NCBI RefSeq assembly: GCF_026151205.1
Contig: NC_087082.1
Coordinates: forward strand, 10,610,901 to 10,674,900
Length of the DNA: 64,000 bases
Reading direction: 5' to 3'
Origin: Bolinopsis microptera
Taxonomy: Eukaryota; Ctenophora; Tentaculata; Lobata; Bolinopsidae
The notes beneath the pieces were generated by a model. That model made no database searches, was not told the origin of the DNA, and saw only the letters and a list, made by a program, of their open reading frames with translations. Numbering within the stretch: the stretch's first letter is position 1; every line of letters starts with the position of its first letter. Below, piece after piece: positions 30,697 through 63,792 of this stretch. The position numbers and the translations under genes are program-made.

Positions 30697-33600
30697 CTAA
30701 CTCATGGTTTTCATTTTAGTGATAGCATCACTCTTAGCACTTCTGGTTGGTCCCAAACGCGGTTCAGGTAAGGGTGCACCACCTGTAGCTGTAGGTTTGG
30801 ACAACTCAGACACCCGGACTTGCTTGTCGTTGGTTTTCAGGGGGGAAGCAACTTTCGGTTGAGGACGCTCAGTCACTTTAGCCGGTGAGGTATCCTTGAC
30901 TGGGGACGCTGGTTTCGCCACAGCCTCAAGTCTGTTGCCGTTCGGAACTCCTAGGTTTAGTGCATTCATTCTCCGTCTTTCCCTTGTTTCATGCAGCTTC
31001 TGGAACTTAATGTCAGAGCGAGCTATCTCTCTGGTTAACAGCGTTTTTTGCGGTTTTATTGCGTCAGCGTGTTGGACCACGTAATTGTTCGAATTATCAC
31101 CGAGTCTTTTGATTACTCTAGCTTGTTCCCAGTGGCTTTTGTCGTCCATTTTGGCGAAAATGAGCTGATTTTCCCGGAACTCTCGAGTTCTGGGGTGTTC
31201 GTTAATTGCAACTTGCAGTTTCTCAGATTGCAATTCCTGCTCCCTCATCCGATCGGTTGGTTTGATTTGGTGTAGTTTAGATCGCAGAGTTCTGTTGAAC
31301 GCTAACACAGCTGGTGTTTGACCAGTAGACGAATGGGGTGTGTTGCGGTAAGTTAGCAGAAAATCGTTCAGATTCTTGCACACGTCCTTACTGGTTACAG
31401 ACATCTTTTTCAGGGCGGATTTAAACGACTGAACAAGTCGTTCGCAGATTCCGTTTGATTTGGGAGAATACGTCGGAACAGTCACGTGCTTTATACCACA
31501 GGATTTCAGATATCCCTCAGTTTCATCCGACACGAACTGTGGTCCGTTATCCGTTACCAGACAAATTGGAATACCTGTACGAGAGAATATGAATCTAAAA
31601 GCACGTATTGTAGCACTAGATGTTGTATTTGTGTTCATTTGAACAACTTCAGGCCACTTGCTGTAAGAGTCTACTAATAATAGCCACATGCTGCCCAGGA
31701 ATGGGCCCGCAAAGTCCGCGTGTACTCTTTGGAAAGGTGCACTGGATTTAGCCCAGGGGTGGTCAACGACTTTAGTCATGTTCTTACCATACTTGGCGCA
31801 TGTCTCACACGTCCGAGCAGTATCCTCGATTTGTGTGTCAAGACGTGGCCAGTAAACGTAAGATCTGGCCAAGGATTTCATACCTGTTACTCCAATGTGA
31901 GTGGCGTGCAGAATATCCATTACAGTGCTTCTCAGTTTAGCGGGAATCACGACACGGGCTCCCCAAGTTAAACATCCAAGTTCATGGCTCAACTCGTCTC
32001 TTCTAGTCCAGAAAGCTTTGAGATCACCGTCACATTTCAGATTCTTCGGCCAACCATTCAGAGTGTATTCCAAAACTCTGCTCAGAATCGGGTCCTTACG
32101 AGTGTCGTTCGCCACTAACTCAGCATTGAGTAAAGTCTCGCTCATAGTCAGTGCAAACATATCACCAAACTCGTCTCTCTCCCTCACAGGGTGTGTTACC
32201 GATTTTGGCAGCCTGGATAACATATCAGCGTTAGCATGATCCTTGGTATTACGATATTGAATGTCATACTGGTAATTCATAAGGAATAAAGCCCACCTAG
32301 TTAACCTACCGGCAGTCATCTCTGGAATTGGCTTATCGCCAAATATACGAACCAGCGCACGATGATCTGTCACCAAGGTAAACTGTCTCATATACAAGTA
32401 AATATGTAGGCGCTTTATGGCCCACACTATGGCCAGGGCCTCTTTGTCCACTTGAGCGTAATTCCTCTCGGCCGGTGACAGGGTCCGGGAGATGAACTCA
32501 ATGGGGCGCTCATCCCCATTCAGCATAATGTGAGACAACACTGCGCCAATGCCACCGATTGAAGCATCAGTGTCCAGTTTAAGAGGAAGCTTGGGATTGT
32601 AAAAGGTCAATACACGGTTAGAAGCCAGCAGATTTTTCAATATTTTAAACGCTGTCTTTTCGGTATTTGTCCACACCCACTTTACATTCTTAGCTCTCAG
32701 CCTTTCAATTGGAGCAATCACAGACGACAAGTTGGGCAAATAGCGCCTGTAATAATTCACAGCCCCCAAAAAACTAATCAGTTCGTCCACATTCCTAGGT
32801 TCTGGAGCCATCAGCATACTCTCGACCTTGCTTTTCACGGGTTTGATCCCTTCAGCAGACACCACATGACCCAGATAGACAACTTCTTTTTGCATGAAAG
32901 AAGTTTTTTCGGTTTTACATTTAAAACCTCGCTGCTCCAACCTACTTCTGACATTATTGAGGTTGATCAGATGGTCACTCTCATTTCGACCAGAAACTAA
33001 TATATCGTCAATTCTGCAGCACGTCATAGGCACACCCCACAGAGTGTCATCCATACATGACTGGAATATAGCCGATGCACTGTTGATGCCATCCGGCAAG
33101 CGATTCCATTGATACAACCCTTTGTGCGTATTCAGGGTGGTCAAGACACGGTCCTCATTTCTTATCAACAGGTTATTATAAGCCTTTTTGATGTCAATCT
33201 TAGAGAACGTTTGTCCCCCCTGCACAGCATTCAGACATTCCTCCACGGTAGGTAGAGGGTATTGTCGGGTGCTGATACATTTGTTCAGGGTCGATTTATA
33301 ATCCCCACAAATGCGCACTGACTGCCCTCCATCCTTCTTCAAAGGCACTATGGGTGTCCCCCATGGACTGTCTTCGACTTTGGTTAGAATCTTCGCTTCA
33401 ACCATATCATTTAACTCACTTTCAACCTTGTTTCTCAAGGCATAGGGTAGACTACGGGCTTTCATCATAATAGGTTTGGAGTTGTCCTTCAGGACCAAAC
33501 TTGCCTGTACACCCTTAACTAGTCCTAAACCCGATTTAAACACCTCGCTCTGTTTTAACTGAGCGATACTACGACATTGATCAACCCGAGTACAGGTGTT

Positions 33601-34689
33601 TTCACATTTCCACCTGTTTTTCACGGTCGCACCATCGGTTAGCATGTCACCCTTATCGACACCACTCCCAGAGCAGCTTTCACAGCTCACTGACACCTGC
33701 TGGGATTTGTCTGGGGCTACATTATGTACTAACTTTGTGCTGAGCAGCTTCTCTAGCCAATTCTGTCCACAGAACTTTACAATCCACGGTCTTCCAAACA
33801 AACTGGGGAAGTCCTCTGCTACATAGAGCTGCATTCCATGAGCTTTTTCACCGTTCAACTCTACATTAACTACAGCACAGCCGTCAACTGTTTTGATTTG
33901 TCCGTTTGCAACCCGTAATGTTTGCCTGCTGGGTGTAAGTGTTAAATTGGCCAAGCCACAAGATAATAATGTACGTTTGCTCACAACAGACACTGCAGAC
34001 CCTGAATCGAACTCCATAGACAGAAGTTTACCGTTGATTTCTACTTCTACATACGGTTTGCTTAACTCAATCATATTGACATTCGGAAACACATTATCAG
34101 AAACTAAACTTAAGTCAGACTTATCAGTGGTAATAGTGGAATCGGGATCACAAACAAGATAACTAAAATCAAAGGCATTAAACACCTTATCCCTCACATA
34201 CATATTTGAAGATTTCGAATCAGTTAAATGAGTAAGTTTAGAGAAATCAGCACACAGATAAGAACATGTATTAGCATTACCTTTTTCAATCTCAACTGAA
34301 TTACACTCATTGTCATGATCATACTCGGGGTAAAGCTCATTGTCCAAGGCATTTTCACAATTCTCATCCATACCGAACTCATAACTCTCCGAACTCGACT
34401 CTCCTTGTTCAATGTTGTGAACAATGCTGTTTTGCTTGCAATTCTTGGAGATGTGTCCAATACGTTTGCAGATATGACACCGGACTTGACAATTTTCACC
34501 AATATGTCCACGAAGTCCGCACCGTCTACATTTAAGTCCCTTTTGCATTCCACTTTTCTGCTTTCCACCCGAACCACCTGAACTTTCCCCCTTCTTCCCA
34601 TAGAGGTTTTTCATTGTTCTTTTGAATGTTGGTTTCACAAAGTTCACTGATCTCGATGACTCTCCCGGTGATAACGTGCTATTCATGAA
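30697..34689 (-). CDS. pol: Gypsy nucleocapsid-protease-RT-RNase H-integrase polyprotein, capsid absent
   Basis: 1330 residues from the first in-frame ATG (34689; an in-frame TAA lies about 45 bases further upstream). Two zinc knuckles (CRRCGLRGHIGENC, CHICKRIGHISKNC) stand within the first 90 residues. Then come protease MEFDSGSAVSVVS, RT with FSKIDIKKAYNNLL and CRIDDILVSG (RIDD replaces the usual YxDD first residue), RNase H LDTDASIGGIGAVL, and integrase with YVYWPRL, DFAGPF, VTDNGPQF and SPKSNGICERL. The reading frame is unbroken. Unusually, nothing resembling a capsid domain lies between the LTR and the knuckles: only 77 bases separate LTR and ATG. It probably depends on another copy for capsid. 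Confidence 0.93.
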   Translation of the reverse strand, partial: FMNSTLSPGESSRSVNFVKPTFKRTMKNLYGKKGESSGGSGGKQKSGMQKGLKCRRCGLRGHIGENCQVRCHICKRIGHISKNCKQNSIVHNIEQGESSSESYEFGMDENCENALDNELYPEYDHDNECNSVEIEKGNANTCSYLCADFSKLTHLTDSKSSNMYVRDKVFNAFDFSYLVCDPDSTITTDKSDLSLVSDNVFPNVNMIELSKPYVEVEINGKLLSMEFDSGSAVSVVSKRTLLSCGLANLTLTPSRQTLRVANGQIKTVDGCAVVNVELNGEKAHGMQLYVAEDFPSLFGRPWIVKFCGQNWLEKLLSTKLVHNVAPDKSQQVSVSCESCSGSGVDKGDMLTDGATVKNRWKCENTCTRVDQCRSIAQLKQSEVFKSGLGLVKGVQASLVLKDNSKPIMMKARSLPYALRNKVESELNDMVEAKILTKVEDSPWGTPIVPLKKDGGQSVRICGDYKSTLNKCISTRQYPLPTVEECLNAVQGGQTFSKIDIKKAYNNLLIRNEDRVLTTLNTHKGLYQWNRLPDGINSASAIFQSCMDDTLWGVPMTCCRIDDILVSGRNESDHLINLNNVRSRLEQRGFKCKTEKTSFMQKEVVYLGHVVSAEGIKPVKSKVESMLMAPEPRNVDELISFLGAVNYYRRYLPNLSSVIAPIERLRAKNVKWVWTNTEKTAFKILKNLLASNRVLTFYNPKLPLKLDTDASIGGIGAVLSHIMLNGDERPIEFISRTLSPAERNYAQVDKEALAIVWAIKRLHIYLYMRQFTLVTDHRALVRIFGDKPIPEMTAGRLTRWALFLMNYQYDIQYRNTKDHANADMLSRLPKSVTHPVRERDEFGDMFALTMSETLLNAELVANDTRKDPILSRVLEYTLNGWPKNLKCDGDLKAFWTRRDELSHELGCLTWGARVVIPAKLRSTVMDILHATHIGVTGMKSLARSYVYWPRLDTQIEDTARTCETCAKYGKNMTKVVDHPWAKSSAPFQRVHADFAGPFLGSMWLLLVDSYSKWPEVVQMNTNTTSSATIRAFRFIFSRTGIPICLVTDNGPQFVSDETEGYLKSCGIKHVTVPTYSPKSNGICERLVQSFKSALKKMSVTSKDVCKNLNDFLLTYRNTPHSSTGQTPAVLAFNRTLRSKLHQIKPTDRMREQELQSEKLQVAINEHPRTREFRENQLIFAKMDDKSHWEQARVIKRLGDNSNNYVVQHADAIKPQKTLLTREIARSDIKFQKLHETRERRRMNALNLGVPNGNRLEAVAKPASPVKDTSPAKVTERPQPKVASPLKTNDKQVRVSELSKPTATGGAPLPEPRLGPTRSAKSDAITKMKTMS

Positions 34690-34766
34690 TTGAGCCTCCC
34701 TGTCTTTCAAACCAGCTTTTTTGACAGCATGTGACGGTTAGTGGCTCTTTTGTCCTCGTCGCCATT

Positions 34767-34883
34767 TGTTGTAGCGTGAGCGTAGAAATAAAACAAGTTG
34801 TTAACACGTAATCATAGAGGCTAGGGAAGAACAAATCGTTAATAACAAATTATGATAGCAATCAATGTTCAATATATATAACA
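34767..34883 (-). repeat. Gypsy 5' LTR (117 bp)
   Basis: Identical to 30113-30229. It would carry the promoter for the minus-strand transcript; its AT-rich TATATATA string near the outer edge is a candidate TATA element. Confidence 0.95.
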
Positions 34884-34888
34884 AGACT

Positions 34889-37479
34889 GACTCAGGCAAC
34901 AGTAGTTTCTTAAACCTGAGTGTTAGAGGATTCTTTTCTAAGAACTTTACTGTTTTGTTTACCATTTTCAAATCTGCGATGGTCCCTTCAGTCACAGAAT
35001 TACTAGCAAAACATGTAGCATAAGCTACATCTGGCCGTGTCTGTGTTGATACCCACAACAACTGTCCGCACACAGTTCTCAGTTGTTGCTTTTCTTTCTC
35101 GTTGATTGGGAGCGTATTTCGATTCACTCGGGTGGGGTCGATCTCTATTCTTGAAATCTGGTCTGCATACCCCAGTTGTGATACCAGAATTCCAGATTGT
35201 GTTTGCTTTACATCAAGACCAGTATAAGCAAATTCAACTTCGACCTCCGTACTTAGACGAAACTTCTTGAACTTCAGTTCCCCAATAACTTCCCTTTCAA
35301 ACTTCTTGCTTCCACTGAACATCAGATCGTCAACATGCACAGCAATGATACCCTCAAGTTTTCCTTCATCATACCAGAACATGAATGACTCATCATATGA
35401 CGATACCACAACATTTAACTTCACTAGAGTATCACGAAGCTCAACATACCACATTCTAGGTCCGTCTACTAACCCGTAAATACATTTGTTCAGTTTCCAG
35501 ATTTTCCTCGTTTCAGCTTCCTTCGGAGGAATAATGAAGACATCTCTTGAAATCTTCTTGCCTTGCAAAAAGGCAGCCTGAACATCGATGTGTTGTAACT
35601 TCCAACTTTCTGTTGCAACTATTGTAAGGAGCAGTCTTATAGAGTCCCTATTACATGTTGAGGAGTCCTTTCGTATGTTGCTACTATTTTCTTGATAACC
35701 AAGTGCCACTAAACGAGCTTTAACAGAACCTTCTGCTTTCTTTGTAATTACCCAACGAACACCAACATTGGACTGTTCGTTTGCATCAACTTCCACGTAA
35801 ACCTTGTTTACTTTGAACTTCTCAAGCTCTGCTAGCTTGGCATCTACAACTGCTTGGTCATACATACTCACACTGGACAGCAACACCTCTTCTTCTGTTT
35901 CTGGTGACAGGTCATCTCTCCAATTCACAGCAAGCTCATACCAATCCACACATTGGATGCTCTCCTCACCATCAAGTTGAATATTTACACAGTTTTTGTA
36001 ACTGCCAGTTGATTTTCCAGCACGGCTATGGATATTTAAAGCTTTATGCCAGATCTCACCATCCTCCTCTGGATACTTTGGAAGAAACTCCACGTGACTT
36101 CTTGCTTTAGGAAGTCCTGATTTGTGCTGAGGTCTGATTGTTGCTGTTGTCTCACTTTGAGGCAGTGTTTCTGTTTCCGGTACAGAAACTGCTGTTTCCA
36201 TAGAGCAAGATGGTTGATCCTCTAGGAAATTTCTCTGCGTCTCTAATGGGGATTTTGGTGAACTTGATACAATACTCGGGTTAGGTTGCCTAACAACTGA
36301 CTCTGAGGTAATGGGATATCCTGTTGTTGTATCCCTGGTTAGATGACACGCACTGCACTTATAATACTGATTTCCATGCTTTAATATATATAAATGAGTA
36401 ATGTCTCTCCCCAGTATAACACCTGGCCCACTCCATTTTGCAGATCCTTTTCTCTTGTACATCACCTTTTCACCGTTGCTATAATACTCATCATTGCTTG
36501 TCCGAACTTGGCTTTGCAGAGCTCTACGTATCTTGTTGCTACTTTCACACTTTGCAAATGCTTGCCTTGCACTGTGCATTGCATTAACATTATCAGCCAC
36601 GGTTTTACTCACCGTTGCTTCTTCTAAAGCTGGCAGTCTATCATCGATGACATTCGGAAGTGAAGGGTTACGGCCCATTGTCAACTGATTTGCAGAAAAC
36701 CCACCAAACATCTGCATGGAGTTTTTCGCACTTAGTGCCCAACACAATGCAACTTCCCAGTTGCATTTTGAATCTTCCTTCGTTTTTACCATCATCTCTG
36801 TCAGCATCTTATGATGACGTTCTACAATCCCATTGCTCCAAGGGCTCTCGGCAGCTGAATTTTGCACATCCACATTGAATCTTTGACACATCTCAGTAAA
36901 CTCCTCATTTAACGGAGTAGTTCGCTGTTTATTAGTCTCATGATTGAAATACTGATATCTGGATATTATCCGGTTGGAAGAGACAAGGACAAGTCCTTGT
37001 CTCTTCCAACCGGATAATATCCAGATATCAGTAAACTCCTCATTGGCGAACTCTCCACCATTATCAGCCATGAATTTCTTTGGATTTCCAAAGATGGATA
37101 TCCATCCAGAGCAAATTCCTTGGATGATTGTCTCTTTCTTCTTATTGTAGATTATTCTAGCTGCTGAATATCTTGTCACCGAATCAATCATATGCAAGAT
37201 ATACACATTTGGAGTGCCAGGAACATTCTTAAGATCCATTGCAACACATTCGTTGAACACCTTTCCTCTTGGGAGACCCACCACTGGTCTTGACTTGGGT
37301 TTCTTGTACATCAGACATATTTTACAACTGCTGGATACCTCATCAATTGCTTTCATGTATTCTGGTCTCTTAAATCCTGCAGTTTTCAGCAATGTTTTCA
37401 GTTTATCACTAGGAGGGTGTGAGAATTGTTTGTGGATTTTTTTCCACTTTCCTCCTAATCTCCTTTTCGTCAGTACCAA
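34889..37479 (-). pseudogene. Copia integrase and reverse transcriptase
   Basis: The integrase has the HHCC finger (HKQFSHPPSDKLK...CKICLMYKKP), MDLKNVPG, ADNGGEF and NSAAESPWSNGIVERHH for D, D and E. RT follows with GVRWVITKKAEGSVKARLVALGYQ, IDVQAAFLQG, CIYGLVDGPRMWY and VHVDDLMFSG (VDD intact). It runs to PLTLRFKKL and PESV, where the gypsy element was inserted. Its start lies in a different frame from protease, through an indel around 37475-37490. A 45-codon insertion sits between the second Asp and the Glu of integrase, which would abolish the normal spacing. Confidence 0.93.
36910..37044. repeat. 135-bp in-frame insertion in integrase with a snap-back palindrome
   Basis: The 16 bases CAGTAAACTCCTCATT occur at 36894-36909 and again at 37029-37044, exactly 135 bases apart. 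Between them lies a perfect inverted repeat with 40-bp arms (36951-36990 and 36993-37032) and a 2-base centre. The insertion adds 45 codons without a stop, placed between NEEFTD and the duplicated NEEFTE of the integrase core. Confidence 0.9.
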
Positions 37480-46502: not shown

Positions 46503-47568
46503 TTAAGATGTTAGGAGTAACGGAAGGCCAAAAGGATTTATAGTGTTTATTCCCAAAGGTTTTAAAGTCTTGAGTTGTTGAATATATTTATGTTCACGAA
46601 CTTCTAAAGTTTTAGGACTAGAATTATCAATAATTGAAACATTAAAAATTTTGTTAAAATCCTCCCTTTGTTTAAAACCATGATCCAACAAATCTAAGCC
46701 CAAACTATATTCATCACTTGTTTCATCTACCTTATCACCATTTAAAAGTTTATAATATTTGACCCTATGTTCTCCAGTTCTAACCCGTAGAGAGCGAGTA
46801 GTGCGACCGACGTAAGCCTTTCTACAGAAACTACATTGGAACAGATAAATGATGTTGTAACTCAGGCAGTTTCCAGGGGAAGCTTTAACCTTCTCGCCGT
46901 TAACTTTGAATTCATGGCTGCCTTTGACAAGTTCGCAGCATTTGCATCTTGGCATATGGCATTTGCTGGTTGGACCATGTTTAGCTCCTAAAGCAAGTTC
47001 TTTCAATTTGACAAGGCGAGATTTTAGGCTTGGCCCTGTTTTCTTGGTGTAACTGAATATTTTCTTCCTAGGCGTGAAAGCTGTTGAGGAGGTCTCTTGG
47101 GATGTTTCAACAGTGTCACTTTCACTGAAACTCCTTGTTCTTGAGAGGTTTTCTTCATACTTCTTAGTCACAGACACCAAATCATCATTACTACCATAAG
47201 TAGATATGACCCTGATTGGAAGGTGTAAAGATGTCTGGTCATCAGGAGATTGAACTTTGCGTAACAGTGATCTTGTTGAATTGAGAACCTTATTACTAAT
47301 GTTCTCAACCATTTTCCTAGGGTAACATGCAGCAAGGAAGGCTTTTTTGAGGTTGTCGAGGTGTCCTTTGAGGCGTTCTTGGCAGTTGATGATCCTTCTG
47401 AGTCTAAGGCATTGAGAGTATACGATACCGGAATAGATATGGTTTTGGTGGGAGCTTTTAAAGTGTAGGTATGAACGAGAGTCCGTTTTCTTTATGAACA
47501 AATCCGTTTGGAGGTAGCCCAAGGAATCGAAAGTGAACATTATGTCAAGGAAAGATACGTATTTACCA
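46503..47568 (-). pseudogene. Penelope RT C-terminus and GIY-YIG endonuclease
   Basis: Begins at GKYVSFLDIMFTFDSLGYL, passes RSYLHFKSSHQNH and GIVYSQCLRLRRI (typical Penelope RT end), a linker with the Cys cluster CHMPRCKCC, then the nuclease blocks IIYLFQCSFCRKAYVGRT and SLRVRTGEHR (GIY-YIG variant with conserved Arg and His), and HKYIQQLKTLKPLGIN near the end. The frame is open throughout; only the upstream DNA insertion disables it. Confidence 0.88.
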
Positions 47569-51088: not shown

Positions 51089-52570
51089 TCAATGTTGATC
51101 TGTCTCCAAGAATATTGAGTTTTTCCTTTCCGGGGAAAGAATCCTGTTGACCATAACCTGCCAGTCCATGTAAGAAGTAGAAACTATCCTATCTTGTTCG
51201 GGAGCTGTCTTTTTGAACGGCCTTCGAGCGTGGTAGACTCTCCAATTATCAGTGATTACAAACTCTCCCGAATTCAATCTTTTTGTGTAGTGCCTACTAG
51301 GATCCTCCACTAGTCCTCTGTAGTACGTGTACGCTTCCCAAAACTTCTCTCTGGTTCCCGTGTCCGTGAAACGGGTGAACATGGCCGAATCCAGGTTGAA
51401 CGGTTGATCAACCGTTTGCCAAATGTCCTTCCCGAGCATATTCACCACACAGTGGTGAGTCATCTGGAATAATCCTGTCCCTGGTGGCGTGTATCTGTAG
51501 GTCACTGGAACAGTTTTCAGCACTTCCAGAAGGTCGGGCCTTTTCTCTGACATCTCTTTGATCGCTGAGAAAGAATCTACCCAGAAACTCTCACCACCCT
51601 CAACAGTGTTCTCCACACAGTGGAAAAACTGCACGTGCGGTGTCTGAAAATATGATTGGAAAAGTAATCTTACATATCTCACAAAATAGCCCGTTTCCTC
51701 TTACCGCCGTTTTTATTTATCTCAGCCATGAAGTAGAAAAGTTCCACATTAATGGTTTATGGTATCTGACGTAATAGTATACCAATAATAAGTTCGACTT
51801 TTACCAATAATTCTAAAAATTTGTGGCTTCTGCTATGACGATACACAAAAATATTCATGGACTAGATTTATTACCTGATAATAATAAGAAAGGTCAAGGT
51901 GAGGAGCAAGGCCCCCGGAGCCATATCCTGGGTTGCTAGGGGTTGGCTTGTACTTTACCAGATCCACCGTCTTAAACACAGTCCTCCGCAAAGGTTTCAT
52001 CTTAAGACCCTCCTCTACGACGTCCAACATGCCCTCTTCAGCCGGTATACCTTTCAGAAACACTATACCGTATCTCATGTAGTGGGTCAGGAACTCTGTG
52101 GTGTTATCAACGTCTTTTATTACCCAGGAGTAATCCCAAAGCTTGGAAACTTCCGCGTCTGGCTCCCCCCAGAATTTCTGTTCTGTGTTTTTTCTTTTCG
52201 TCAGATCTAGCAACTTTTCCATACGAGATTGTATTGGGTTAGGTCCGTAGTCTCCTCTCATGGTCCGCGCAATTAGTCCCTCATGTCCATCACTCCACTT
52301 CAATCCAAGATAATGATCTGACATTCTACCAATCTCCTCAACCTTGATTCCCGGGGCAAAGCTCCCACTTAAAGGTTGATCCAGGCACTGGTGGGCGTTT
52401 TTCCCAAAACAGGCTTCACATCGGCACATATTCCTGGTCTCGATGTGCAGAATATCCCTCCCGTCCAGCTGGATTCCCTTTTCCGTATACTTCACTGCAT
52501 CACTGAGCAGTCTTGTCAACTGTGGTTTGGGTAAAGATGATGGTTTCAGCCGCGCTAGTCCGAATAACAT
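51089..52570 (-). CDS. Gamma-butyrobetaine dioxygenase-like enzyme, copy 1, complete
   Basis: 2-oxoglutarate/Fe(II) oxygenase of the BBOX1/TMLHE family; these hydroxylate carnitine precursors. Two exons, 52570-51875 and 51643-51089, phase-0 intron with GT/AG ends, 416 residues. The N-terminal zinc domain has C49-x-C51-x2-C54 and H96. The double-stranded beta helix has H224-x-D226 and distal H370 (NWRVYHAR), so the iron triad is complete. The substrate cannot be decided between butyrobetaine, trimethyllysine or another betaine. The first 30 residues are basic/amphipathic and could be a mitochondrial leader (inference). A tandem paralogue lies upstream. Confidence 0.88.
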
Positions 52571-56831: not shown

Positions 56832-57781
56832 ATATATAATCTACTCGCTTGCAAAAACCCGTCAATATTGCCGAGACAAAAAGTTTGAATCTTTTAAAAA
56901 TATTCTCCTGGACAAGCGGCTTTGCATATACCGCATTGGACCTCGGATTTAGACTTGAACTTTGGACGATTCATGATTATTAGGAAGTTCAACAACCCAA
57001 TGTAAGCAACAATAGCAAGCGGGCAGAGCGACTAATTAAAAAACTAGAAAAAGTCCAATTCTCACGCCCATTCTAGCATCATCGTACAGATTAGTTAAAA
57101 CGCCCTGTTTTTCTGATATTTTCTCACGCCACACGAGTTTGGGCTGGGTGTGTGCAGTGTGATACACACATTGAAGACGTGATGTGTATATGCTACTGCT
57201 TGCCAATACAGATATCGGGTGACACTGTAGACATATCCGGTTTCATAGACTAGATAAGTAGATAGTAAATTGTTAATAAAGTAATAATTAAGTAAATAAA
57301 TCAGTTTTAAACTAATTACAACACTACAAATCTATTACATTTATTGAGTTTAGGGAATGTGCTAAGTAACACCCCGTATGGGGAGTATGTACTGATAACC
57401 TCTCATCTCTGGGGCGAGACATGATGTACCTGCTCAGTGGGTCTGGGAGTTGGATGGAATGCATCCGGCACTTCTTGCGAAGTGTCGGCCCAAACCTTCG
57501 GGACTAGGTAAGAGTGTGTCTGTCTGTATTGAGCCCTAATGGTAGTCTTTCGGATGTTGTTATTATTGAAATTGTTTTCCAAATGACTCAATTACATCGT
57601 GAGTCTTCTTAATTGCAATGATTTATTTAAAACTAAACTTTTCAATATCTCATTACCATTCCTTTTCTGCCGTTTATTCTCGTTTCAGATAGGCACATCA
57701 TGCCGCTGTGTGTACCGTCTGACCCCTTGGGCTGCTGTGCTTGTGCTGACTGTCGACCCCTGGAGATGTTCTCCTTCTACA
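56832..57781. other. Junction region and LINE 5' UTR
   Basis: The LINE 5' end must lie here but I cannot place it. The GTG-started frame upstream of 57782 (from 57599) contains no recognisable domain and is treated as leader. Confidence 0.45.
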
Positions 57782-59209
57782 ATGGAACTTGATAAACTGA
57801 AAGACCTTATAGTTCCCCAACTGGGAAATCTCGCTAACGAAGAACTTAGAAAGGTGCAGAATACATTGGAGAACCTTCTCCAATATACCAACACGCTACT
57901 TGATTCTGCACCCTCTCCAGTACCCAAAATACAGGAATCATCGAGTCCATCACCCTCTTCCCCACCTTCTCCATCTCCGCTGCTCCTTCACTATAATCTT
58001 CGACATGACCCCCTTAGTGAGCCTCTGGTTGAGGAAGTCCTTGACCACGTCAAGAATATCAATTACAGCAGGTCTGGAACAAATTTAAGCCCAGATACCT
58101 TCCTGTACGGCAGCCAACGATACGCATACAATCGAAGATCTGCTGCCCTCTCACCAGTCTCTATCCAACCCAACACCATCATGGATAAACTGCTGAAGAC
58201 TGTTAACTTAACACTAGGAACAGAGTATAACTCCATGTTAGTTAACAAGTACAGCTCATATGTGTGTTGCCTTCCTCCCCACAAGGATGATGAAGCAGGC
58301 CTCGATCCGGGTGCACCAATATCAACACTCTCGATTGGTGCAACTCGGAAAATGAACATTTCCCTTGACAAAAAAAAATCCGTCAAGTACCTTACTCTTA
58401 CTCCCGGGAGCATATTCACGATGTTGCCTGGTTTCCAGCAATCTTTTTACCATGAAATACTTGCTGGAGACAAAGATGTACAGAAAGAAAGGGGAGTCCG
58501 TTACAGTGTCACCTTCCGACGTCTGCTCCCACCTAAAGAAGCCCCTCCTGCTATCCATTCTCCTCCCCCATCCTCCTCCCCTCCTCCCCCACAACCTTCT
58601 GCAGAACCGAATACCTCCCCTGCAACCAGCACCTCCAAAGATGCCACATACCCTGATACCTTTGTGTTTGGCAGCTCCCTCCTCAAGAGCTTGAAAACTG
58701 AAACACTTTCCAGGCGTGGAAAAATTTTTAAAGTTATCTCCCGGTCTGGAGCACACGCTTGTGACATTTATAACGAAGTTGAAAAGTCTGCCAAGCAATT
58801 TAATACATCTAATGTTTCCACTGTGTTCCTTCAAGTCGGGGGAAATGATGTTGAAAATTTGATTGTAGACTCTGACATAAAACGCATATTTGAAGACATT
58901 AATGACCTTATAATCCTAACAAAACAGGTATTTCCTGCAGCTAAGATTAATTTCTTTTCACTTGTCCCTAGGAAGGCAAGTTATCTTACACATATTAGAA
59001 ATATGCATAAGTTTAATGATCTATTAAGTGAGATGTGTAAGAAAGAAAGTATAAGATTTGTTGACTTTTTCTCTTTTTTCCTTAAGAAGACACCTACTAT
59101 GTGGCTTTTAGATTTTAATATGTTTAACAGGGATGGTATCCATCTTAATCCTGTTGGAACCAGTGTGTTAGCCAAAGTTCTTATTGGCGTTGCTAACCAA
59201 CCTAGGTAG
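57782..59209 (+). CDS. LINE ORF1: AlkB-like dioxygenase fused to SGNH esterase
   Basis: 475 residues from ATG 57782 (an upstream GTG-started extension is disregarded). Residues 1-45: helix likely to form a coil. 46-70: Pro/Ser-rich. About 105-247: AlkB-type 2-oxoglutarate/Fe(II) domain with every family mark, N155-x-Y157, H167-x-D169 (PPHKDDE), distal H224 (FYHEI), and R240-x5-R246 (RYSVTFR). 251-290: Pro-rich linker. 293-470: SGNH hydrolase with FGSSLL (Ser 298/299), VGGND (353-356) and DGIHLN (D451, H454). AlkB proteins remove N-methyl lesions from DNA or RNA. Esterase domains are known in CR1-type ORF1 proteins; the AlkB part is the unusual one. The reading frame has no disruption. Enzymatic activity is inferred from motifs. 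Confidence 0.88.
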   Translation: MELDKLKDLIVPQLGNLANEELRKVQNTLENLLQYTNTLLDSAPSPVPKIQESSSPSPSSPPSPSPLLLHYNLRHDPLSEPLVEEVLDHVKNINYSRSGTNLSPDTFLYGSQRYAYNRRSAALSPVSIQPNTIMDKLLKTVNLTLGTEYNSMLVNKYSSYVCCLPPHKDDEAGLDPGAPISTLSIGATRKMNISLDKKKSVKYLTLTPGSIFTMLPGFQQSFYHEILAGDKDVQKERGVRYSVTFRRLLPPKEAPPAIHSPPPSSSPPPPQPSAEPNTSPATSTSKDATYPDTFVFGSSLLKSLKTETLSRRGKIFKVISRSGAHACDIYNEVEKSAKQFNTSNVSTVFLQVGGNDVENLIVDSDIKRIFEDINDLIILTKQVFPAAKINFFSLVPRKASYLTHIRNMHKFNDLLSEMCKKESIRFVDFFSFFLKKTPTMWLLDFNMFNRDGIHLNPVGTSVLAKVLIGVANQPR

Positions 59210-59411
59210 TCATCTTGTAACATGTTCAACTTATAGAATTCAGAGAATTCTTTCATTTTTAACGAGCATTATAGCTTAACAATGCTCTCATATTTGTTCC
59301 CATATTTATTAATTGACAATATTTTAATTCATTAACTTCTTGCTTCTTTAACAGAGTATAATCAGTACATATTTTCCAGTCTCCATCTAACTTTGAGTTT
59401 TCAACTAATTT

Positions 59412-60968
59412 ATGGGAGTCACGTTTTTACAACACAGAACAGTGATTGGTCTATACTCTCCCAAAGTCAAATGCAATGCTAAATTAAATATAGATTCAAT
59501 TACCACTATAGAGAAAAGTGCTATTTTAAAGATGATGTATGGAGTAGTGATTGTTGTATATGTGTATATGATCTGTCTGTTATTGGCGGGGGCCATTGAA
59601 ACAGCAAGTGAATACTCAGACCAAACATTTCGTATGCATCGCTCGTACAAGATCGGACTACACCTGACCAATGACTGGGACTGCCTTATGAACAGTGCAA
59701 ATCTTGTAGTCCTAATGATCATCTATTCAAAGAAACAAAATGGAATAGCCCTATGGATAGTGAAGTATGGTTGTCCCAGACGTTACTCTTCCGCTAAGTG
59801 TAGTGGACATCAGTTTCTAAGTAACATGTTCACCATCTGGACGACCATTCTGAACTTAGTTTTGCTTGTTATCTGCAATACAAGCATACTTAACCCAGGT
59901 CCAGTTGATAACAATAACCTCAGTCATCTAAAGGTAATGTACCAAAATTTGAGAGGGCTTGTCCCCTTTAGTGGCCTAGCATCTAAAAACATGCCGCTTG
60001 ATGCTGGTAAACTACTAGAGCTCCAATCTAAGATCTATGAAGACAAGCCTGATGTTATTGTTCTGACTGAGACTTGGCTTTCAAAAGAGCACCTGGAAAA
60101 TGAGATCCTCCCTGATAGCATCTACAAGATATATCGGAAGGATAGATCCAAAAGATCCCACCCCCCGGATCCTGATAACCCAAATAAGTTTCGAAGGAAG
60201 GAGGGTGGAGTCCTTATTGCAGTCAAGACTGGCATCAGTATTGAAAATGACAAGATTGATGTCAGCTCTAGGGCTGAAATGATCTCAGTCAGCCTAAAAT
60301 CAAACAACACATACTACTGCATAACTGCCTGCTATAGAGTTGGCACCCTTGGTGAAAATAATTTTAATGAAATTGAGAAACACCTCAGAAATGTGGTAGG
60401 ACGGAGAAAGTTTAAGGCCCACTTTGTAGTTGGGGACTTCAATCTACCTGAAGTTAACTGGTCAGACGGTGTGTCCCCCACACTTCTTGGTGGCCGTTTT
60501 ATAGATCTGTTTAATGACCTAGGCTTAACACAAATGATAAACCAACCCACTCATGATAAAGGGAAGGTCCTCGATCTTCTCTTCTGTAATATGATAAGTG
60601 TTGTTGAAAATTTGGCGGTCCTGGGGAAAAATGAGATATGCTCCTCAGATCACTTTGGAATAACTTTTAGTGCTAAAATGAAGTTTAGAAAGAAGGTCAT
60701 CAAACGAAAAATCTTAAATTACAAAAAAGCAGACTGGATCGGCCTGAACAATGATCTGAAATCAGTTAGATGGGATGATCACCTTAACTGTGATGCATCT
60801 AAACAGGATGGTTCCGTTTTAAGAAAATCCTGTTCCATCACATACACAACCGAATCCCAACTATTACGATATCAGATAAGGATCAGCCACCCTGGTTTGA
60901 CTCTGACACTTATCAGCTGTGTCTCAAAAAAGAAAAACTACGAGTCAAATCTAAAAGATCATGCCTAG
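59412..60968 (+). CDS. LINE ORF2, first part: hydrophobic leader, 2A-like motif, AP endonuclease
   Basis: Starts at ATG 59412. Residues 41-60 form a hydrophobic segment (MMYGVVIVVYVYMICLLLAG). Residues 146-164 read ILNLVLLVICNTSILNPGP, a 2A-like end (NPG|P at 161-164) preceded by a hydrophobic helix, though the usual D-(V/I)-E-x is not kept. The endonuclease begins at about 174 (VMYQNLRGL) and has LTETW, CYR, VVGDFNLPEVNW and SSDHFG. The frame breaks near 60815 by one indel; the downstream 50 residues in this frame are not native, and the native frame continues into the RT ORF. Confidence 0.82.
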   Translation: MGVTFLQHRTVIGLYSPKVKCNAKLNIDSITTIEKSAILKMMYGVVIVVYVYMICLLLAGAIETASEYSDQTFRMHRSYKIGLHLTNDWDCLMNSANLVVLMIIYSKKQNGIALWIVKYGCPRRYSSAKCSGHQFLSNMFTIWTTILNLVLLVICNTSILNPGPVDNNNLSHLKVMYQNLRGLVPFSGLASKNMPLDAGKLLELQSKIYEDKPDVIVLTETWLSKEHLENEILPDSIYKIYRKDRSKRSHPPDPDNPNKFRRKEGGVLIAVKTGISIENDKIDVSSRAEMISVSLKSNNTYYCITACYRVGTLGENNFNEIEKHLRNVVGRRKFKAHFVVGDFNLPEVNWSDGVSPTLLGGRFIDLFNDLGLTQMINQPTHDKGKVLDLLFCNMISVVENLAVLGKNEICSSDHFGITFSAKMKFRKKVIKRKILNYKKADWIGLNNDLKSVRWDDHLNCDASKQDGSVLRKSCSITYTTESQLLRYQIRISHPGLTLTLISCVSKKKNYESNLKDHA

Positions 60969-62935
60969 CTGAGGACTATGAAAAGTTCTCACAATGTAGA
61001 AAAGATTTCCAAAATTTGGTCGACCAAAAAATGATATCAAATTTGAATGATGATGATGATCCAGCTCTTATATCAAAGAAATTCTGGAAACATGTCAAAT
61101 CGACATCAAAATCTACTCGCATACCAGGAACAGTAAACTATAACGGCAGATTTAGAAACAATCACTTAGACCAAGCTGAAATGTTCAATGAATATTTTGC
61201 TGCACAGTTTTCCGAAGCGAGTAACTATGATGTTGATATTGATTATAGTAATGACTCAGTAAACGACATTGAGTTCAGTACCAGCAGAATCCGAAAAATT
61301 CTAAAAGATGTCAATGTAAATAAAGCTGCTGGTCCAGATGGTATCCATGGCAAAATTTTAAAGAACTGTAGAGATAGTATTGCATACCCACTCTCGAGCC
61401 TTTTTAAAATCTCTTATAATATAGGTCAGATACCATCTGAATGGAAATTTGCTAACGTAGTACATGTGCATAAGAAAGGCCCCAAAACTTTAGTTGAAAA
61501 TTATCGGCCAATCTCTCTCACAAGCCTTACAATGAAAATTTTTGAAAAAATAGTGAGAGACGAACTGTTGGCAAAATGCCAGCATAAAATACATGACAAC
61601 CAGCATGGTTTTCTTCCTCAGAGGTCTTGTACTACACAAATGGTCGGGTATATAGACTGTCTTTCACTGTCTATTAACGATAATATCAGAACTGATGTGG
61701 TATACTTTGACTTTGCCAAGGCCTTTGACTCAGTTAACCATGATGTCATCCTAGAGAAATTAAAATCGGAATTTGAAATTGATGGTACACTGTTGAAGTT
61801 TATTATGAACTATCTCAAAGACCGCAAACAGTGTGTTATTATTGGGGGATCCCAATCAGAACAAAAGAATGTCCAATCAGGAGTTCCCCAAGGCTCCATT
61901 TTAGGACCTCTGTTTTTTGTACTCTTTATTAATGACATGTCAGAATGCGTAAGTGAAGGTACAAAAATTGCCCTGTACGCTGATGACACCAAAATATGGC
62001 GTAAAATTGTGGGCTGGAGGGACCATGAGATCCTACAAGCAGATATAGATGCCCTGCATTACTGGGCAGTAAGAAACAAAATGAAGTTTCACCCCAATAA
62101 ATGTAAGGTACTCTCTATATCCAGCAAATTGAGCGAAAAAGGAATTTTGAGTTTTTTCCCCTTTCAGCTCTTTGTCTACACCCTAGATGGAACGGCACTA
62201 GACTTCGTCCAGAGTGAAAAAGACCTTGGGGTCTTTGTTAGAACAGACCTTAAGTGGGAGGAGAACATAGTCAACCTTTGTACGAAAGCTAGTTCTCGTC
62301 TAGGTCTAATGAAAAGAACTCTACGGTTTATTAACGACCGTAAACAAAAACGGGCATTCTATCTAGCGCTGGTTAGGAGCCTTTTCGAAAATTGCAGTGT
62401 TGTCTGGAGACCAACAAGTGTTGTCTTGAATAACAAAGTTGAAAACATTCAGCGCAGAGCAGTTAAGTGGATCCTTGGCGAACAGGATCATCACTATAAT
62501 GACTTAGAATACTTGGCTCGATTAAGAGAGCTAGACATGTTGCCAATGGAGCTGAAGTTTGAATACACAGACTTACTATTATTCCATCAGATATACAATG
62601 GTCAATCTGTTCTGAAGCTCCCACCTTATTTAACCCCGATAACAACCAGTGAACAGGGTAGGTTGCGTTCAAACATAAGGCAACCCTCGAGATATAATGA
62701 AGTTGATACATCTCAAATGCCTGATATCAACCAGAGGCGACAGAACAGACACGACCACCTTTCCCTGAAGTGTACTGTGGAAGCAAAAGCTCACTCCTTT
62801 AAGAGAAGCTTCTTCTTCAGAACACACAGTGTCTGGAATGACCTACCAACTGACCTTAAAGAGATAAGTGATGCCGGAACTTTTAAGGCAAACCTGGCAA
62901 AACACTTTTGGGACAAATTGACAGACCCTGACTAA
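60816..62935 (+). CDS. LINE ORF2, second part: reverse transcriptase
   Basis: Continues ORF2 in another frame; the first ATG is at 61040 or thereabouts but the coding sequence joins the endonuclease upstream. RT blocks: NKAAGPDGIHGKILK, VENYRPISLTSLTMKIFEKI, NQHGFLPQRSCTTQM, YFDFAKAFDSVNHDV (motif A), SGVPQGSILGPLFFVLFIND (motif B), ALYADDTKIWR (motif C), KFHPNKCKVLSI and DLGVFVRTDLKWEENI. It ends in the usual LRRxLFxxRxVxxWN-like tail (FFFRTHSVWNDLPTDLKEI) and a stop at 62935. All catalytic Asp residues are present. Confidence 0.92.
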
Positions 62936-63792
62936 GTTAATGAGTGCAAATGATATTTATATGTGGGCCCCTGCCACTGATAGATCGGTCACGATACTGA
63001 ATATAACAACTATAATATAAAAATAAATCTATTAAATAACATTTACGTTCTGTCGCCATGATTTGACCCTGGTGCAGTCCTCAGTTAATATACTTAATTG
63101 GATTACGCGAACTTTATATCCGACTGTAATCTTGCTTTTAAGCGCTGTGTGATGATACGCGCGCAAATTTTTGGCGCATTATGGGTCAAGTCATGGATAC
63201 ATTATGTATTTATTTTTATAATTCTAAATTTGCGTGTTTTAGATACATTTTGTGTGTTTAGATGGAGGTGGTGTTAGTGAGTCTGGGAGTAGAACTATTA
63301 CTTGTAGTACGTATACCCCCAGAACTTGTACCACTTAACCATGCTTTTAGTATTTATACAATATGGACTACAACTTTTACCCAACAATTGCCTCATGATA
63401 ATAATGTCGTATATTTTTAATTCTCTTTGCTGTATTGTATAATGTACTATTTGTAAAAGTTTCAAATCAAATCAATAATGACAACTATTTATGTCGTGTA
63501 CGCGAAAATGCCCCAATAATTAGCATCTGCTTAGTGGTTACTTGATGCACAGATTTTGTAGCTAATAGCAACAAACTTTGGTCTGTGAAACGAAATTTGA
63601 TAGACTGGATCAGTGGATCCCTGACTGAGGACATTTAAATAACAGTCCAGCAACTTTTAGTCTGCTCTTTCACTTAAATTCCTACTGAAATATTATCGAA
63701 AATTCTCAGAGTTGGCTCTCGAATTTCCTACTTTTTGTCAAAAATTTCCTACTTTTAAAAATTTCCTACATTCTTAGAATGCGAGAATGCGG
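62936..63792. other. LINE 3' UTR and right end of the 8.3 kb element
   Basis: No ORF of note. From 63710 there are three TTTCCTAC motifs spaced about 20-30 bases apart, which face the TTTCCTAC motif near the left terminus (about 55555). Confidence 0.45.

Follow-up and report, generated by a model that had tools for sequence, protein, structure and literature searches.

The 64,000-nucleotide stretch of Bolinopsis microptera DNA analysed here (the window; NC_087082.1, positions 10,610,901 to 10,674,900) carries a long interspersed nuclear element (LINE) of a family we call F1. Its first open reading frame (ORF1) encodes an AlkB-type dioxygenase and an SGNH hydrolase in one protein, as a sequence-only reading of the window had proposed and as sequence, Pfam and predicted fold bore out. 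That reading had also placed ORF1 upstream of an ORF2 with an apurinic/apyrimidinic (AP) endonuclease and a reverse transcriptase (RT). Both domains were found, although ORF2 of the window copy is broken, with the endonuclease and RT pieces in two different frames. The element is a non-LTR (lacking long terminal repeats) retrotransposon, given the AP-endonuclease and RT ORF that follows ORF1, the dispersed near-identical copies and their common 3' end. Its features are as follows.

57302..63475, plus strand: LINE copy of family F1, ~6.17 kb (blastn against L002-L005, L039 and L040)
57302..57781, plus strand: 5' leader; first in-frame ATG at 57782, context ACAATGG
57782..59209, plus strand: ORF1, 475 amino acids (aa): N-terminal helix, AlkB domain, Pro-rich linker, SGNH domain
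57836..57907, plus strand: ORF1 aa 19-42, predicted long helix (AlphaFold2 secondary structure)
58055..58531, plus strand: AlkB domain (2-oxoglutarate and Fe(II) dependent, 2OG-Fe(II), dioxygenase), ORF1 aa 92-250
58244..58252, plus strand: N-x-Y motif, N155-K-Y157, kept in most first-search homologues
58280..58294, plus strand: H167-K-D169-D-E171, two iron ligands and the ALKBH2/3-type Glu at H+4
58451..58453, plus strand: H224, third iron ligand
58499..58519, plus strand: R240-x5-R246, 2-oxoglutarate-binding arginines
58532..58651, plus strand: Pro-rich low-confidence linker, ORF1 aa 251-290 (predicted local distance difference test, pLDDT, <50 at aa 259-286)
58652..59206, plus strand: SGNH hydrolase domain, ORF1 aa 291-475, with S299, N355, D451 and H454
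59412..60968, plus strand: ORF2 5' piece, AP-endonuclease-like domain (Exo_endo_phos_2, 5.6e-9)
61016..62935, plus strand: ORF2 3' piece, reverse transcriptase (RVT_1, 1.5e-29)
63459..63475, plus strand: 3' end, short ATCAA-type repeats without poly(A), common to the window copy, L039 and L040

The AlkB and SGNH domains of ORF1

The AlkB block of the window ORF1 contains both the HxD...H triad and RxxxxxR, and the profile search suggested by the sequence-only reading gave 50.9 bits against PF13532, the Pfam AlkB family, where the cut-off is 31.2. NCBIfam and PHROGs profile scans added little. AlphaFold2 predicted the block to fold as AlkB, with a double-stranded beta-helix; a second fold model had a mean pLDDT of 76.6 and a low-confidence N-terminus. 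The earlier expectation of such a fold was thus upheld by prediction, as far as the fold itself goes. The helix at aa 19-42 is a possible coiled coil.

Database protein searches returned 66 homologues in a first round (7982 candidates scored) and 160 in a second (7996 scored), of which 120 were listed, so that residues were examined in 186 of 226. The iron triad was present in 185 of these 186, as were both arginines. Both His and the Asp were kept in 65/66 proteins of the first set, R240 in 65/66 and R246 in 66/66; the sole triad miss, P0066, does not have that part of the protein. All five residues were found in each of the 120 listed homologues of the second set. Glu at H+4, as in ALKBH2 and ALKBH3, has a role in base recognition, and it was observed four residues past the first His in 184/184 parsed homologues (the 186 minus P0022 and P0066). 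A 65-row alignment with 35% mean column identity has 17 invariant columns, H167, D169, H224 and R246 among them (chance 1e-6). The N-x-Y motif was also common in the first set (N 60/66, Y 62/66). Identity to human ALKBH2 and ALKBH3 is ~20–24%. By sequence, predicted fold and conservation, the domain is an ALKBH2/ALKBH3-like 2OG-Fe(II) dioxygenase.

The SGNH domain of the window copy has all four of Ser, Asn, His and Asp. Its Ser was kept in 66/66 first-search and 112/120 second-search homologues, and its Asn in 66/66 and 120/120. ORF1 also had a weak sequence match (E 0.38) to PDB 4c1b, an ORF1-encoded protein that we take to be that of ZfL2-1. Separately, P0116 and 9 of 11 compared proteins from the second search, each of 552 aa and on long contigs, were 98.6–99.8% identical. 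They may be young copies, or the same locus met in several assemblies, and we did not use them as a sign of recent activity.

Copies and sister families in the genome

Copies L002-L005, together with L039 and L040 (the L002 and L004 copies with more of their surroundings), were 98.8–99.2% identical to the window copy by blastn. Homology of the copies begins at 57302, 57307, 57344 or 57783, and we set the 5' boundary at the furthest point common with another copy. In the three copies whose sequence was taken far enough (window, L039 and L040), the common 3' end falls at 63473-63475. No clear repeat that could be a target-site duplication flanks any of these three. In L040, ORF1 is open and endonuclease and RT share a single 1174-codon open frame. 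In the window copy, at ~59885-59915, a hydrophobic stretch in the N-terminal extension of ORF2 leads into NPGP, resembling a degenerate 2A motif without D-x-E.

Searching the window's genome (264.65 Mb, 232 contigs) with the ORF1 protein gave 95 matches, with 90 of 2258 candidates scored. Five F1 matches span all 475 residues free of stops: L001 (the window copy) and L002 to L005. The protein is covered in L006 by two overlapping matches that share a single frame of 562 codons, a pattern that resembles a small in-frame duplication. L007, with one stop, and L010 match only part of the protein, and L008, L009 and L011 are decayed relatives at 63–67% identity. The ORF1s of four sister families, F2 to F5, have 478, 630, 455 and 513 aa, and in the one copy of each evaluated with Pfam, ORF1 is followed by an endonuclease-RT ORF of 1009–1178 aa. 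Pfam AlkB alone had at least 151 matches in the genome. With 150 of 587 candidates scored, this is a lower bound that favours good matches, and host genes and Helitrons count towards it; 149 of the 150 listed had no internal stop. Recurring ORF lengths among them were 551, 593, 611, 646, 676, 707, 778, 843 aa and more. Four loci with ORF lengths new to our sampling, L041-L044, all proved to have AlkB and an SGNH-like C-terminus, then an endonuclease ORF, and a tenth AlkB LINE family, L034, was met by chance beside an F3 copy.

The AlkB block is therefore found in other F1 copies and in nine other families, which disposes of the concern that it might be confined to one copy. Capture of a host AlkB gene by a single copy was rejected on these grounds; given the five full-length, stop-free F1 ORF1 matches, the nine further families and the grouping of the mobile AlkBs apart from host ALKBH2 and ALKBH3, we regard it as extremely improbable.

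By endonuclease identity, the ten families fall into four groups, with 14–26% between groups: F1/F2/F4/F5 (39–51%), F3/L041/L043 (45–60%), L034/L044 (29%, perhaps two groups) and L042 alone. RT identities agree with this grouping. They are 54–59% within F1/F2/F4/F5, and from that group to F3 and L034 they are 27–32%, hardly above the 24–28% to another LINE RT in the window; the RT tree had long branches, and the RT comparison is one of identities only. By profile comparison, F2 (E 2.8e-38) and F4 (E 5e-32) are homologous to F1 across both domains; F5 sits with F4 in the AlkB tree. An alignment built on L043 was likewise homologous to the window alignment across both domains (E 9e-45), which argues that AlkB-SGNH moves as one module. 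As far as sequence can tell, AlkB-SGNH is a genome-wide ORF1 type, long established and conserved in many LINE families.

Two further observations concern these relatives. In L034 (2-2758, minus strand) and L044 (2700-3998, plus strand), ORF2 opens with a Cys-rich PHD/RING-like finger ahead of the endonuclease, recognised by a weak Pfam match in L034 and by eye in L044. At L048 (C2:1946750-1947450), an AlkB domain runs straight into the beginning of an SGNH-like stretch of the GDS type; L048 groups with the L034 family in the AlkB tree.

Helitrons and the origin of the AlkB domain

Ten matches of the ORF1 genome search, mostly to the AlkB part, sit in frames of 719–3388 codons. Nine of them (L021-L029) were sampled as probable Helitrons and, with L050, lie on contigs C9, C12, C10, C3, C1 and C7. 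In L021, L022, L027 and L029, Pfam found the order reversed relative to the LINE ORF1, SGNH then AlkB. In L021 and L022 the pair is followed by DUF6570 and a Helitron Rep domain (L021: Helitron_like_N 1.6e-23, HUH motif GSPHFHM; L022: 2.6e-22), while the L027 and L029 frames end earlier. L050 continues the 3226-codon frame of L021 and matches PIF1 helicase (E 4.3e-25). The L021 element is a Helitron, with the HUH Rep and a PIF1-like helicase in one ORF, and it is the one element in which the whole set was seen. An upstream 167-codon frame with a 2A-like GDVETNPGP near its end was observed in five of the six listed Helitron elements.

A protein search with the Helitron region gave two matches from 7992 candidates scored. 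P0187, a hypothetical protein of 766 aa from Mnemiopsis leidyi, combines a 2A-like motif with AlkB (4e-21) and a short stretch resembling SGNH (Pfam E 0.018); across 24% of the query, it shares 58% identity with the Helitron AlkB region. P0188, which is bacterial and aligned to 4% of the query, was taken as spurious.

To place these domains, a tree of 49 rows compared mobile AlkBs with host and human ALKBH2 and ALKBH3 and with host L047. In it, the mobile AlkBs grouped together, with support of 97/93 without the 843-aa protein of L042 (L843) and 95/79 with it. They also do not have VFGKWH, the stretch that precedes the YG motif in host ALKBH2. Nested within the LINE-type AlkBs is a single clade of Helitron AlkBs (99/100), and forcing the 38 LINE-type rows together (our own LINEs and database ORF1-like proteins, without L843 and L048) was rejected by the approximately unbiased test (p-AU 0.00086). 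Because the Helitron clade is nested and a LINE-only grouping is rejected, the AlkB domain was most likely acquired by LINEs once, perhaps twice, and then passed to a Helitron; the sharing comes from the tree, and the direction is what we infer from it. The SGNH domains of LINEs and Helitrons share ~21–27% identity over longer stretches.

A host AlkB gene adjoining the LINE was rejected as an explanation, since AlkB and SGNH lie in a single ORF and host ALKBH2 (L045) and host ALKBH3 were identified separately in the same genome. A viral origin was also set aside: one scan of viral contigs gave one weak match, L049, at 23% identity and to the SGNH half only. Taken together, the balance leans slightly towards AlkB-SGNH being an ORF1 type of ancient origin and wide occurrence among animal LINEs, handed from a LINE to a Helitron. 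Dealkylation of nucleic acid would then be a strategy common to RNA-copying and rolling-circle transposons, each with its own repair or eraser enzyme to protect single-stranded intermediates.

Elsewhere in the window, long open frames at 30697-34710 and 34801-37479 (both minus strand) encode Gypsy-like and Copia-like polyproteins. An ORF at 46503-47540 (minus strand) has a GIY-YIG-like stretch by eye and is possibly Penelope-like, with no Pfam match at 0.001. At 51833-52570 (minus strand), a weak Pfam match marks part of a host dioxygenase gene like gamma-butyrobetaine hydroxylase, with no relation to ORF1 seen.

Proposed function and known systems

We propose that the window ORF1 represents an ALKBH2/3-like dioxygenase-SGNH type in which AlkB clears methyls of the N1-methyladenosine (m1A) and 3-methylcytidine (m3C) type and SGNH provides a membrane, lipid or assembly function, and we give this a probability of roughly 0.5. 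The ORF1 protein would accompany the element's nucleic acid, and its AlkB domain would strip these Watson-Crick-face methyls from the RNA template and the nascent cDNA; in Helitrons, it would act on single-stranded Helitron DNA. Removal of the methyls could keep copying from stalling. The SGNH role is suggested by analogy with the proposal for the ZfL2-1 ORF1 esterase. The likeness to ALKBH2/3 and the occurrence in elements with single-stranded intermediates lead us to favour m1A/m3C removal from the element's own template or cDNA, which is in line with the cleaning role put forward in the sequence-only reading. The predicted fold, cofactor residues, SGNH fusion, ORF1 position, breadth and Helitron-shared branch are read from the data, and catalysis, substrate and benefit are inferred. 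AlkB treatment in vitro removed m1A and m3C, and with it an R2-type RT captured more 3' tRNA halves; the authors tie this to m1A impeding reverse transcription, and effects on intact tRNA capture were modest (PMC12140624).

Several points weigh against this proposal. The substrate and target of the AlkB domain are deduced from sequence and model. The database homologues were taken as proteins, and some may lie outside LINEs. Pfam AlkB fell below the cut-off in F2, F4 and F5, the Asn of N-x-Y is missing from the same three families, and it is Thr in 92/120 second-search homologues. SGNH matches were weak in L042 (0.0077) and L044 (0.001), and its Asp (D451) was kept in 18/66 first-search homologues, though in 118/120 of the second search. 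L843, on a long branch, may be a separate capture; a smaller first tree put it on the side of the host proteins, next to L047, though weakly supported (48/37). Selection within families, which the sequence-only reading had suggested measuring, gave a divided result. Pooled pairwise dN/dS (nonsynonymous to synonymous rate ratio) across six F1 copies was 0.36 for AlkB and 0.19 for SGNH, with the linker at 0.69 and the N-terminus at 1.23 (all four from a handful of sites), while across nine F2 copies it was 1.34 for AlkB and 0.16 for SGNH. The F2 AlkB value comes from few sites, six of them neighbouring singleton changes that probably stem from one copy. We read it as uninformative to mildly contrary, and the argument is carried by sequence conservation between families.

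The F2 value and the patchy D451 would also suit an AlkB domain that serves as a structural or RNA-binding scaffold, its catalysis no longer relevant, and SGNH proteins can lose activity (PMC3905857). The triad and both arginines in 120/120 second-search homologues, and the triad in 65/66 of the first, are kept despite a mean column identity of 33–35%, so an iron-independent domain is unlikely and we find the scaffold rather improbable.

The AlkB domain might instead erase host marks that flag the element for silencing, such as N6-methyladenosine (m6A) on RNA or methyl groups on DNA, a counter-defence role proposed for an orchid Gypsy element (PMC9289625) and for plant viruses. We hold this as a tentative possibility. 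An m6A-eraser role is less favoured because ALKBH5 fits the L043 model worse and because human L1 is helped by m6A and suppressed by ALKBH5 (PMC7873242).

A different source of damage would be the host itself. The base 3-methylcytosine is a by-product of DNA methyltransferases (DNMTs), and elements whose copies are heavily CpG-methylated might carry their own ALKBH2 equivalent to repair it on their DNA or cDNA. F1 is more CpG-depleted (observed/expected 0.50) and TpG-rich (1.32) than the window (0.67 and 1.12), and the presence of ALKBH2, together with DNMTs, has served to indicate that a methylation system is at work (PMC11294593). However, CpG depletion has other causes and the host already owns an ALKBH2 gene (L045), and we consider this repair role unlikely.

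Among known systems, the type IV (esterase) ORF1 of CR1/L2 LINEs, with ZfL2-1 as example, has the same SGNH domain ahead of an endonuclease-RT ORF2 and likewise an N-terminal helix or coiled coil (PMC3905857, PMC4120745). The window ORF1 has AlkB in addition; the words AlkB, dioxygenase and oxygenase do not occur in PMC4120745, nor AlkB and dioxygenase in PMC3905857. The survey in these papers places esterase ORF1 in vertebrate groups only, and the ORF1 type described here is, by comparison, often without the catalytic SGNH Asp. A Phalaenopsis Ty3/Gypsy element also encodes an AlkB, which demethylates m6A in vitro, but as a separate, ALKBH5-like ORF in a plant LTR element, gained recently in one orchid lineage (PMC9289625); ours is a LINE ORF1, ALKBH2/3-like, fused to SGNH and present in many families. 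From the human ALKBH2 and ALKBH3 repair dioxygenases, the mobile AlkBs branch apart. To our knowledge, neither SGNH nor reverse transcriptase is part of the AlkB proteins of plant RNA viruses. Those are parasite-encoded AlkB domains too, with a proposed role in RNA protection (PMC544882). Bdelloid LTR and Penelope-like elements with GDSL esterase ORFs offer a parallel for an accessory enzyme common to unrelated element classes; that exchange is between retroelements (the words AlkB and Helitron are absent from PMC5408684), whereas here a rolling-circle DNA transposon is included. No report of AlkB in LINEs or Helitrons was found in 5.39 million full texts, where broader topics were covered by their best-ranked matches and repeat databases such as Repbase were not covered.

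In laboratory practice, AlkB is added ahead of non-LTR RT reactions to remove m1A (PMC12140624); here, a LINE itself encodes both AlkB and RT. AlkB counts in genome annotations may be mostly transposon copies. In Bolinopsis microptera, an AlkB-type enzyme is a standing part of the retrotransposon machinery, beyond a one-off capture, and is present in a DNA transposon as well. Clearing chemical marks from nucleic acid may, this suggests, belong to the life cycle of mobile elements, and whether base methylation limits transposition becomes a testable question.
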